Shown here piece after piece: positions 12,543-51,331 of a stretch of DNA of 61,202 nucleotides. This stretch comes from Chloroflexota bacterium. GTDB taxonomy: Bacteria > Chloroflexota > Anaerolineae > Anaerolineales > DRMV01. Position numbers and translations under genes: made by a program. The stretch covers positions 1 to 61,202 of the forward strand of contig DRMV01000010.1 of assembly GCA_011322445.1 (NCBI GenBank), read 5' to 3'. How positions within the stretch are numbered: position 1 is the stretch's first letter; every line of letters starts with the position of its first letter. The notes beneath the pieces are model-generated. The model was not told where the DNA came from. It saw only the letters and a program-made list of their open reading frames with translations, and did no database searches.

Positions 12543-12658
12543 CGCCCTCACCCCTCAAGCCGTCCCCTTCGACTCCGCTCAGGGAGCGGCTTTCTCCCCT
12601 CTCCCAGTGGGAGAGGGGAGAAATGGCGAGCGAAGCGAGCCAAAGTAGGGTGAGGGCG
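12543..12658. repeat. 116-bp nested palindromic repeat element
   Basis: The outer 11-bp inverted repeat CGCCCTCACCC (12543-12553) / GGGTGAGGGCG (12648-12658) encloses a perfect 15-bp hairpin (12591-12605 with 12609-12623, loop AGT). It also contains CCTTCGACTCCGCTCAGGG, a motif related to one at 57616. It fills most of the gap between the PTPS-fold and glycosyltransferase genes and resembles REP/MITE-type elements. Confidence 0.75.
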
Positions 12659-48362: not shown

Positions 48363-48425
48363 TGCAAAGATGCAAGTTGCGTCTTGCATCTTGCAACTTG
48401 CAACTTGCAACTTGCAACTTGCTAC
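48363..48425 (-). repeat. 7-bp tandem array between nnr and the APH-like gene
   Basis: Nine units in 7-base register on the plus strand, from TGCAAAG to TTGCAAC (four perfect copies, 48391-48418) and TTGCTAC. The CTA at 48422-48424 is the stop codon (TAG, minus strand) of the APH-like gene. Confidence 0.85.
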
Positions 48426-49558
48426 AATCCCCACCCCTCCATCGCCCGTTTGGCGGCGCGTTCCAGGCCGGCCACGGCTTTGTCGAAATGGCGGAAGCGC
48501 TCGTCGCGGGTTTGGCCGTGGTAGTAGCGGTAGTAAATCTGCTGGGCAATGCCCGCGAGGCGGAAAAGGCCGTACACGAAATAGAAGCGCAGGTCGTCGG
48601 GGGTGAGGTCGGTGTCGGCAATGTAACGCGCCACCACCTCGCGGCGGGTGAACGCGCCGGGCAAATGGGTTGGCCCAAGGCGGATGGCCTGCATCTCCGG
48701 CGGGTCGTCGGCCTGCACCCAATAGGCCAACGACGCGCCCAAATCCATCAGCGGGTCGCCCACGGTTGCCAGTTCCCAGTCCAGCACACCGACGACGCGG
48801 AAGGAGCTCTCCCCACCCCCCGCCCCCCTCCCCTCCCTTACTAAGGGAGGGGAGGGGGTGTCAGGCGCTTGCGCCGGACGGGGGAGGGGTGAGATCTCAA
48901 AGACGACATTGTCGAACCGATAGTCGTTGTGGATGAGCGCCGCACCGCGTTCCGGCGGAAGGTTGGCCTCCAGCCATGCGATGACGTCCTCGAAATCCGG
49001 CACGTTGGGGGTGCGCGCATCGCGATAGCGCCGCGCCCAGCCCTGCACCTGCCGCTGGACGTAGCCTTCCGGGTGGCCGAAATCGCCAAGGCCGAGGGTG
49101 CGGTAATCGAGCGCGTGCAGGCGGCGGTGAGTGTCGATGAGCCGTTCGCACAGCAGGCGGACGCGTTCCGGCGGCAGGTCGAGGTCGGGCGGTGGTTCGC
49201 GGCGCAAAATCAGGCCGTGGAGCCGCTCCATCACATAGAAAGGCGCGCCCAGCACCGCGGGGTCGTCGCAATAGGCCAGCGGCCGCGGCACGGGGAAAGC
49301 GCCGTAAAGGGCGTTGAGCAGTACCCACTCGCGGTGCATGTCGTGGCCGCTCTTGGGCTTCTTGCCACGCGGCGGGCGGCGGAGCACCATTTCAGTTTCA
49401 CCCATACGCAGCAAATAGGTCAGGTTGGAGTGGCCGGAAGGGAATTGCAGGACTTCCAGCCTGCCCTCCAGGCCCGGGATGGCTTCCTTGAGGTAGGCTT
49501 CCAGGCGGGCGAGGTCGAGTTCCTCGCCGGGGCGGGGCGGGCGGACAGCGTCGCTCAT
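48422..49558 (-). CDS. APH-family kinase, 4-hydroxyacyl-CoA-kinase-like, with inserted repeat
   Basis: A 378-residue aminoglycoside-phosphotransferase-fold kinase. It has the N-lobe (FPSGHSNLTYLLRMG), the catalytic loop HNDYRFDN and the metal-binding LDWELATVGDP. Its start overlaps the acyl-CoA dehydrogenase stop by 4 bases. APH plus ACAD pairs (LvaA/LvaC in Pseudomonas, fused in ACAD10/11) phosphorylate 4-hydroxyacyl-CoA and then eliminate phosphate, so that role is likely here. Between the catalytic loop and LDWE about 35 extra residues (PLPRPAQAPDTPSPPLVREG and on) are encoded by a palindromic repeat inserted in frame. The TAG stop lies in a tandem array. Confidence 0.85.
   Translation of the reverse strand: MSDAVRPPRPGEELDLARLEAYLKEAIPGLEGRLEVLQFPSGHSNLTYLLRMGETEMVLRRPPRGKKPKSGHDMHREWVLLNALYGAFPVPRPLAYCDDPAVLGAPFYVMERLHGLILRREPPPDLDLPPERVRLLCERLIDTHRRLHALDYRTLGLGDFGHPEGYVQRQVQGWARRYRDARTPNVPDFEDVIAWLEANLPPERGAALIHNDYRFDNVVFEISPLPRPAQAPDTPSPPLVREGRGAGGGESSFRVVGVLDWELATVGDPLMDLGASLAYWVQADDPPEMQAIRLGPTHLPGAFTRREVVARYIADTDLTPDDLRFYFVYGLFRLAGIAQQIYYRYYHGQTRDERFRHFDKAVAGLERAAKRAMEGWGL
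48824..48858. repeat. Palindromic repeat inserted in frame in the APH-like gene
   Basis: A perfect 17-bp inverted repeat around a single C (48841): CCCCCTCCCCTCCCTTA and its complement. Weaker flanking pairing (GAGCTCTCCCC near 48804, GGGGTGAGATCTC ending 48898) suggests a longer element. Confidence 0.85.
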
Positions 49559-50778
49559 TGCAGCACCTTCCTTCCGGCTTCCATGACGTCGCGATAAGGG
49601 CGCAGCAGCCGCTTAGCAAGGGAAACCTTGTGCACTTCGTCCGCGCCGTCGTAGATGCGGGCCGCGCGCTCGTGGCGGTAAAAATAGGCCAAGATGGTGT
49701 CGTCGGTCATGCCCAGGCCACCGTGCACCTGCAGGGCGCGGTCAACCACCTTTTGCATGGTGTTTGCCACGAGGAACTTGATCATGGAAATTTCCTGGCG
49801 GGTTTCCTTCCAGCCCAGATGCTCGATGCGCCAGGCGGTTTGCAACGTGAGCGCGCGGGCGGCCTCGATTTCGGCGGCGCTTTCGGCAATCCACGCCTGG
49901 ATGATTTCCTTGTCGGCCAGCACCTGGCCGGGAGCGATGGGACGGCGGGCGGCGTATTCAATCATCAAATTCAGCGCGCGGCGGGCGACGCCCAGCCAGC
50001 GCATGGTGTGGTGAATGCGCCCTGGCCCTAAGCGTTCCTGCGCAATGCGGAAACCGGCGCCTTCCGGCCCCAGCAAGTTGCTTTGAGGCACGCGACAGGA
50101 ATGGTAAAGGATTTCGGCATGGCTGAAATAGCCGCCGCCTTTGTGCCCCATGATGTTGATGTTGCGCACGATGTCGAAGCCGGGCGTGTCGGCGGGCACG
50201 ATGATCATGCTGGCGCGCTGGTAAGGCGGCGCGTCGGGGTCGGTCACGGCCATCACAATGGCAAAAGCGGCTCCGTCCGCGGCGGTGGTGTACCATTTCT
50301 GGCCGTTGATGACGTAATCATCGCCGTCCTTGACCGCGGTGGTTTCCATGTAAACCGGGTTGGAGCCAGGCATTTCCACCTCGGTCATGGAAAAGCAACT
50401 GCGAATTTTGCCTTCCACCAGCGGGCGCAGCCAACGCTCCTTCTGTTCCGGCGTGCCGTATTTATGCAGAATTTCGATGTTGCCCGCGTCGGGAGCCTGG
50501 GTGCCAAAGATGTAGTGCCCCAGGGGGCTGGCGCCCAGAATTTCGGAAACCAGCGCAAAATCGGTCAGTGGCAGTTCCATGCCGCCATATGCCTTGGGCT
50601 GGGCAGGCCCCCATAGCCCCATTTGCTTGACCTTCTCGCGCAGAGCGTCGAGGCGGGGCTGGAAAACGTCAGGCGGCTCGTTGAGGAAGTGCTGCTCCAG
50701 CGGGTAGACCTCTTTTTCCATGAATTCCCGAATAAGGTTGAGCATCAGTTGCGTGTCGTGAGGAATGGTGAAGTCCAT
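49555..50778 (-). CDS. Acyl-CoA dehydrogenase, ACAD10/11-like
   Basis: A 407-residue FAD-dependent acyl-CoA dehydrogenase. The substrate/FAD loop is CFSMTEVEMPGSNP, then YVINGQKWYTTAADGA, ALQVHGGLGMTDD, and ARIYDGADEVHKVSLAKRLL near the C-terminus. The Asp-Gly in place of Glu-Gly in that last motif is seen in the ACAD10/11-like group. That group works with an APH-type kinase on 4-hydroxyacyl-CoA; the kinase gene overlaps this one by 4 bases. ATG 50778 has only a weak ribosome site (GGAGCCCC), but the family start and promoter fit. The longer frame upstream is not family-like. Confidence 0.93.
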   Translation of the reverse strand: MDFTIPHDTQLMLNLIREFMEKEVYPLEQHFLNEPPDVFQPRLDALREKVKQMGLWGPAQPKAYGGMELPLTDFALVSEILGASPLGHYIFGTQAPDAGNIEILHKYGTPEQKERWLRPLVEGKIRSCFSMTEVEMPGSNPVYMETTAVKDGDDYVINGQKWYTTAADGAAFAIVMAVTDPDAPPYQRASMIIVPADTPGFDIVRNINIMGHKGGGYFSHAEILYHSCRVPQSNLLGPEGAGFRIAQERLGPGRIHHTMRWLGVARRALNLMIEYAARRPIAPGQVLADKEIIQAWIAESAAEIEAARALTLQTAWRIEHLGWKETRQEISMIKFLVANTMQKVVDRALQVHGGLGMTDDTILAYFYRHERAARIYDGADEVHKVSLAKRLLRPYRDVMEAGRKVLQ

Positions 50779-50829
50779 GCGGGGGCTCCTGAATGGGATT
50801 GGGCGCGATGGCCGCAGACTCGCACGTTT

Positions 50830-50858
50830 GTTATAGCACATTCGTGAAGGCTGGTCAA
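50830..50858 (-). promoter_or_regulatory. Promoter of the ACAD-APH operon
   Basis: On the minus strand TTGACC (50858-50853), 17-base spacer ending TGC, TATAAC (50835-50830). The leader is about 45 bases. Confidence 0.7.
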
Positions 50859-50888
50859 AGGGCGTGGGCATTGCACGGCCGCGGAAGG

Positions 50889-50922
50889 CAAAAAAAAGCC
50901 CCTCCGCGCGGTGGCGGAGGGG
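50889..50922 (-). terminator. Terminator of the MarR operon
   Basis: CCCCTCCGC (50899-50907) pairs with GCGGAGGGG (50914-50922). On the minus strand the stem is followed by G, C and a run of T (50897-50890 are A on plus). Confidence 0.85.
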
Positions 50923-50956
50923 TAACGGAGAGGGGAAGCAACGGTGCCCGGCAGCG

Positions 50957-51331
50957 TCAGGCCTTGCGCAGAAAATGCTGATCAACGATGAGAATGCCCA
51001 CAATCACCACCCAGGTGACCGTGCGCACCGTCATCGCGCGCAGGCTTTCCCCCGCGACAACCTGGTGATAGGCCGTTTGGAGGATGATATACACTGTGGA
51101 ATGGGCTGCCAGGGTTGCCAGCGCCAGTTTGGGCGCAATGGGCCGGTCTTGCCACAGCAACACGGATGTGACGACCACGGTCAGAATCCCCATGGTGAGG
51201 TTGTAAACCGGTAACCAACTGATGACGTAGTAATCGACGGGCTCGTGGAGGATGACCACTTTGGTGCCTGCAAAGACAGCCATACCGCCGATGATGAAAG
51301 CCAGAACGGCAGCGATCTTATTGAGTTTCAT
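50957..51331 (-). CDS. Four-helix membrane protein of the MarR operon
   Basis: A 124-residue protein with four transmembrane helices: residues 5-25, 38-60, 68-88 and 100-118. The first loop contains HEPVDYYVISW, and a mid-helix AHSTVYIILQTAYHQV carries two His residues. I do not recognise the family. GAGGAG lies before ATG 51331; the upstream part of the frame is not membrane-like. It is the last gene of a three-gene unit with a MarR regulator and another small membrane protein, and is followed by a terminator. Confidence 0.7.
   Translation of the reverse strand: MKLNKIAAVLAFIIGGMAVFAGTKVVILHEPVDYYVISWLPVYNLTMGILTVVVTSVLLWQDRPIAPKLALATLAAHSTVYIILQTAYHQVVAGESLRAMTVRTVTWVVIVGILIVDQHFLRKA

Follow-up and report, generated by a model that had tools for sequence, protein, structure and literature searches.

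A palindromic repeat of BoxC-like anatomy lies in frame within a Chloroflexota kinase gene, and its family is linked to DUF559 nuclease genes

The stretch of DNA analysed here (the window, 61,202 nt) is one contig of a 2.63 Mb Anaerolineales genome, G000. It carries a gene for an APH-family phosphotransferase, neighboured by an acyl-CoA dehydrogenase-like ORF, and within the kinase gene lies a palindromic element, inserted between the motifs HNDYRFDN and LDWE with the frame kept in both halves (Table 1). The original prediction had placed an insertion at this point and in this frame, and comparison of the ORF with those of congeners bears out its position, coordinates and frame; an insertion of about 35 residues had been estimated, slightly more than the 32 found. 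Between the kinase and an epimerase/dehydratase gene, positions 48372–48425 of the window are made up of head-to-tail CTTGCAA heptamers, and a similar short-repeat insert (ATCCCGC) occurs at the UvrA site of the related genome G002 (L257).

Table 1. Position and strand in the window of the kinase gene, the parts of its insert, the neighbouring ORF and the second element.
Feature	Position	Strand	Description
APH-family phosphotransferase (host gene)	48422..49558	-	ORF, 378 aa; Pfam APH PF01636, E 1.4e-47
Acyl-CoA dehydrogenase-like neighbour of the kinase	49555-51003		ORF
Whole insert relative to the G004 empty site	48803..48898	-	96 nt, residues 221-252, 32 aa
Outer arm GATCTCACCCCTCCCCC	48880..48896	-	purine third strand on opposite strand
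Variable small hairpin GTCCGGCGC-AA-GCGCCTGAC	48860..48879	-	sequence varies by copy, hairpin kept
Central near-invariant 35-nt hairpin CCCCCTCCCCTCCCTTAGTAAGGGAGGGGAGGGGG	48824..48858	.	contains the 17-bp inverted repeat
Purine arm GGGGGGTGGGGAGAGCTC	48804..48821	-	mirror third strand of central hairpin and outer-arm partner
Second element, intergenic	12543..12658	.	same multi-hairpin plan; outer stem CGCCCTCACCCC/GGGTGAGGGCG

Among the congeners, G003 and G005 have the same site filled, with the palindrome present in all three filled copies (G000 included), and G004 lacks the element. The empty site of G004 is 12 nt long, and alignment against it confirms the insertion point. More distant relatives have 12–15 nt here, encoding a turn of 4–5 residues (DPAD, SPRE, EPSDL), the short turn that had been foreseen. 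The insert might instead have turned up as ordinary protein sequence in unrelated species; among the kinase homologues from other phyla that were checked, none was seen to carry it, and all are shorter by about its length; nor was it seen in any other homologue beyond the genus. Both halves of the gene are under purifying selection in comparison with the congeners (dN/dS 0.04–0.12). The insert sits at the tip of a β-hairpin, and the AlphaFold2 model of the kinase (mean pLDDT 86.8) is confident except at residues 226–249, where pLDDT is below 50. The insert is thus predicted to be a disordered, exposed loop between the two strands leading to LDWE, in keeping with the exposed loop that modelling had been proposed to look for. 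Two contigs of G005, C138 (L100) and C117 (L105), stop within or close to the kinase element; the C117 copy has five extra bases that shift the frame, either as an assembly artefact or as a real broken allele.

Read along the coding strand, the element runs from the outer arm GATCTCACCCCTCCCCC through the variable hairpin and the central hairpin CCCCCTCCCCTCCCTTAGTAAGGGAGGGGAGGGGG to the purine arm GGGGGGTGGGGAGAGATC. The perfect 17-bp inverted repeat already described in the kinase is borne out, with arms at 48824–48840 and 48842–48858 and a 1-nt spacer. Perfect, directly neighbouring arms of at least 16 nt form only two pairs in the 61 kb, the other lying at 12591–12623, and for perfect 17-bp arms no more than 10 nt apart the expectation over such a length is ~4e-5, a rough figure for uniform composition that GC-rich sequence raises. 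The 17-bp arms are near-pure pyrimidine and purine, and the purine strand of the central hairpin has its mirror image in the purine arm, with a score of 0.88–0.93, on a background in which shuffled flanks reach 0.75 in 12% of cases. Since each outer arm could serve as a third strand to a palindromic hairpin, a triplex could form on either DNA strand. The small side hairpin differs among the kinase copies of G000, G003 and G005 by changes that mostly preserve pairing; these matching changes are seen in the orthologous APH copies only, template-switch mutation could also cause them, and the variable hairpin is unalignable across copies. The repeat ends in GATCTC. Terminal inverted repeats together with a target-site duplication would mark a MITE of a DDE transposon; the repeat has imperfect inverted ends of 17 nt, and no target-site duplication was found in any filled/empty pair compared. 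Three of the six reading frames are open through the repeat in each of three copies checked, and four of six in a fourth, which would go some way to explaining how genes can tolerate the repeat. The second, intergenic element had been called similar in style and does have the same plan: its hairpin at 12591–12623, with an exact CCCTCTCCC core, is accompanied by two side hairpins. A structured-RNA family was ruled out, as the window has no Rfam match.

BoxC is a repeat of E. coli that has been known since the 1990s, with no known means of movement. The BoxC/PIT/TM intrastrand-triplex motif of that species has the form CCCTCTCCC-loop-GGGAGAGGG-spacer-GGGTGAGGG (Holder et al. 2015, PMC4666352). 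Judged by its sequence anatomy, the kinase insert belongs to this class, its triplex being putative. About ten copies of the repeat family are present in G000 and more in its relatives. The search for the element in other genes of the same genome, proposed at the outset, was productive: in-frame copies lie in long ORFs of G000 identified as APH, Mfd, GlyS, UvrA (two copies) and the GlyA-GcvT junction, and relatives have them in MenD, UvrD and Maf, the host genes being named from their reading frames and not all by profile. Congeners without the insert, or with an alternative allele at the same place, were found for APH, Mfd, GlyS, MenD, UvrD and Maf; at the Mfd site of G003, a palindrome of different build occupies the same position. 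GlyS and MenD are among several sites where ancestral loop codons appear to have been replaced, not merely interrupted. Intergenic copies also occur, notably in G003, and the repeat is not restricted to genes. We regard the repeat of the window as a variant of BoxC/PIT/TM and not as a plain member, because it stands in frame in APH, Mfd, GlyS, GlyA-GcvT and UvrA. At the GlyA-GcvT locus (L002:1-3100, G000:C33:114170-117269), as also in G003 and G002, serine hydroxymethyltransferase and GcvT read as a single uninterrupted frame, and a palindromic element marks the exact point where the two meet. A longer high-copy repeat in G005 (L251–L254; translated ...GVQANVVEALF...) holds the same core palindrome at many places.

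The two copies in UvrA of G000 flank a DUF559 domain (PF04480) that is itself in frame with UvrA. The eight strongest DUF559 matches in 18 genomes of this bacterial family all lie in frame in long ORFs, mostly beside repeats, their hosts being UvrA in six genomes, MetH in one and PyrF in one; a shorter match in the same 18 genomes lies in a restriction enzyme-like ORF. Three more genomes, from another family, have DUF559 at the corresponding place in MetH, and an HsdM-like ORF of Pseudomonadota also carries the domain. The UvrA-embedded domains retain all invariant columns, the active-site residues, and with dN/dS of 0.02–0.13 (0.04–0.19 for UvrA) they are under purifying selection; their synonymous divergence often exceeds that of UvrA itself. 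In G006, the repeats flanking the DUF559 embedded in UvrA (L169/L259, G006:C113) are eroded or missing, which suggests long domestication. The UvrA gene of G002 was considered as a solo remnant of such a composite, but it provides no test, its allele being a different low-complexity insert. Using Foldseek, the predicted DUF559 fold gave TM-scores of 0.78 to the homing endonuclease I-Bth0305I (3r3p) and 0.85 to the DUF559 structure 3hrl, and a profile of the UvrA-embedded domain finds both by sequence (E 2.9e-4 and 1e-47, respectively). The predicted fold is that of the EDxHD/Vsr-like homing endonucleases, in line with the published assignment of DUF559 to that group (PMC9403480). At three loci (L272, L273 and L274, of Chloroflexota genomes G068, G058 and G042), DUF559 lies inside an apparent intein of a DNA methyltransferase, with a C-terminal ...AHSFITEVCVVHNC followed by GSGTTAY. 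These apparent inteins are an independent sign of a homing role.

The association between the repeat and DUF559 extends well beyond UvrA. Counting perfect hairpins with an arm of at least 9 and a loop of 3–12, within 250 bp, we found one upstream of DUF559 at 36/57 Chloroflexota loci, downstream at 31/57 and on both sides at 26/57, so that about half of the loci are not flanked on both sides. By flank this amounts to 67/114, compared with 12/350 control windows elsewhere in the same loci. The Pseudomonadota loci gave 24/30 upstream, 22/30 downstream and 18/30 both, or 46/60 flanks against 6/180 control windows. Flanks of other ORFs are a fairer control, because they are rich in intergenic DNA; against these, the pooled count is 111/172 DUF559 flanks (64.5%) to 5/90 other gene edges of the same loci (5.6%; p 2e-22), a statistic that, like the others on this link, bears the phylogenetic non-independence of the sampled genomes. 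The hairpins at DUF559 flanks have pyrimidine/purine arms in 138/151 cases and a third strand in 110/151, compared with 4/35 and 2/35 at unrelated loci. The link is phylogenetic as well as physical: among 121 Chloroflexota genomes, at least three TM-type hairpins were found in 37 of the 43 with DUF559 and in 22 of the 78 without it, the odds ratio of DUF559 for repeat load is 15.7, and by family the comparison is 19/21 vs. 3/23 (p 4e-7). Seventeen DUF559-free genomes have at least ten TM hairpins, and DUF559 is therefore unneeded for the persistence of the repeats. Inspection by eye of single loci in Neisseria, Klebsiella, Lelliottia and Picosynechococcus also found third-strand repeats beside DUF559. 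The DUF559 gene of E. coli DH1 (K-12) is ycjD, and BoxC copy 9 (PMC4666352) lies 167 bp after its stop codon. This gene is present in 3365 of 5426 complete E. coli genomes; strains without ycjD were ruled out as clean empty sites, as their locus carries an efflux operon or another gene. A search of the openly licensed literature found no paper linking DUF559 or ycjD to palindromic repeats, and as an earlier report elsewhere is possible, the novelty of the link is provisional.

We think it fairly probable that a mobile palindrome of the BoxC/PIT/TM class gave rise to the kinase insert, as a non-autonomous copy, with DUF559 as its likely mobilising partner. The palindromic repeat would have inserted in frame into a loop at the kinase surface, and we propose that it has persisted because it can be read through in that frame and does no harm at that place. 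The complete form would be repeat-DUF559-repeat, as in UvrA of G000. DUF559 would make a cut or nick, either at the structured repeat or at a target that is uninterrupted; repair from a repeat-bearing copy would follow and would leave either the composite or a solo repeat. That DUF559 helps to spread the repeats is the likeliest reading, in which both a cutting activity of DUF559 and its role in moving the repeat are inferred. Against this reading count the repeats of DUF559-free genomes, the DUF559 genes that have no repeats, the Chloroflexota loci without a hairpin on both sides, the eroded or missing repeats of G006, the lack of a target-site duplication, the apparent replacement of loop codons and the relatedness of the genomes sampled.

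The main rival, which we consider rather unlikely, makes DUF559 no more than a passenger. As a homing-endonuclease gene it would either settle in the repeats, where it does no harm, or recombine by way of them, and the repeats themselves would spread otherwise, for example by replication template switching. The occurrence of DUF559 without repeats as an intein endonuclease and the many genomes that retain repeats without it are what a passenger would lead one to expect, as are flanking copies whose direct and inverted orientations are similarly frequent (25 and 17 of 86 loci). However, the co-occurrence of DUF559 and repeats is strong at the level of both genome and family, and since the flanking is seen in two phyla as well as at the Neisseria, Klebsiella, Lelliottia and Picosynechococcus loci, a passenger would have had to rediscover the repeats again and again.

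Movement of the repeat as a REP or REPIN by a RAYT (Y1_Tnp, TnpA-REP) transposase is very improbable. Short high-copy palindromes are typical of REPs, and Y1_Tnp domains were found in G000, but flanks and co-occurrence rule this mobiliser out: 0/22 Chloroflexota Y1_Tnp loci are flanked on both sides, pyrimidine-purine palindromes with a CCCTCTCCC-like core are absent from the hairpins found at such loci, the odds ratio of Y1_Tnp for repeat load is 1.5 (p 0.43; 15.7 for DUF559), and only 2/17 Y1_Tnp-positive, DUF559-free genomes have at least three repeats. Nor do the GATCTC ends correspond to the GTAG or CGTC tags of REPs. Among the Y1-like genes themselves, a 275 aa ORF of G000 with a weak PF01797 match (L264, G000:C18:13000-16500) lies between two methionine-synthase-like ORFs, and a similar ORF is found near MetH in G003. 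In several members of the family, an ORF of 490–610 aa with a Y1_Tnp-like match (L156/L263 in G000:C49; L153–L155, L157) adjoins DNA polymerase I; it has no hairpin flanks and is probably not a transposase gene.

It is hardly credible that selection maintains the insert as an ordinary insertion domain in the kinase, with the palindrome as a by-product: the frame is kept in G000 and G003 and selection is purifying on both sides, but the same DNA recurs in unrelated genes and in intergenic DNA, the inserted segment is disordered in the AlphaFold2 model, and G004 and the homologues checked from other phyla do without it. The likeness to the palindromic elements of Rickettsia drawn in the original prediction holds for behaviour, the insert being palindromic, in frame in unrelated conserved genes and in a surface loop, and finds no support for kinship; that it is such an element is unlikely in the extreme, given a different phylum (Chloroflexota), a different sequence class with the third-strand anatomy of BoxC/TM and a different suspected partner.

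To our knowledge, how protein-coding palindromes move has been a standing question since 2000. BoxC/TM repeats are known from hundreds of bacterial genomes and are associated there with local instability; the DUF559 association supplies a testable candidate mobiliser, present in laboratory E. coli as ycjD. More tentatively, BoxC/TM palindromes and DUF559 may be the two parts of a bacterial mobile element of an unrecognised class, which inserts in frame in essential proteins without splicing. Repeat-nuclease-repeat would be the autonomous form, solo repeats would be derivatives dispersed from it, and the class would range from Chloroflexota to E. coli, with ycjD. Beside introns and inteins, remaining in the protein would be a third way for a homing-type nuclease to reside in a conserved gene.

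The repeat has points in common with four known systems. Like the REP/REPIN-RAYT system (PMC3733652, PMC3116915), in which REPs are mobilised in trans, it is a short palindrome of high copy number, but its partner is not a Y1 transposase and the GTAG/CGTC tag is absent. With the Rickettsia palindromic elements (Ogata et al.; PMC2229807, PMC10969869) it shares a length of ~100 bp and tolerated, in-frame insertion in unrelated conserved proteins, and it differs in sequence class, in phylum and in having a suspected DUF559 partner. The EDxHD/Vsr-like homing endonucleases (I-Bth0305I) match DUF559 in fold, in active-site residues and in having genes inside host genes, and DUF559 too is found in inteins. 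However, the DUF559 copies in UvrA, MetH, PyrF and HsdM are not removed by an intron or intein; the embedded domain stays in the frame of the host protein, with palindromes at its borders. DUF559 also occurs without repeats in Caulobacter, as VsrA, tied to a DNA methyltransferase (PMC12907096). Closest in anatomy is BoxC/PIT/TM, which likewise has a pyrimidine-loop-purine hairpin and, after it, a purine third strand in mirror order, along with many copies per genome, wide distribution and instability at loci; in the second element of the window the CCCTCTCCC-GGGAGAGGG core is exact, and a GGGTGAGGGC arm is present. In E. coli, BoxC copies reportedly lie between genes without exception and away from mobility genes (PMC4666352), whereas in the Anaerolineales there are copies in frame inside housekeeping genes, the arms are longer (16–17 bp), an extra variable hairpin is nested in the repeat, and the class has a nuclease gene at its borders.
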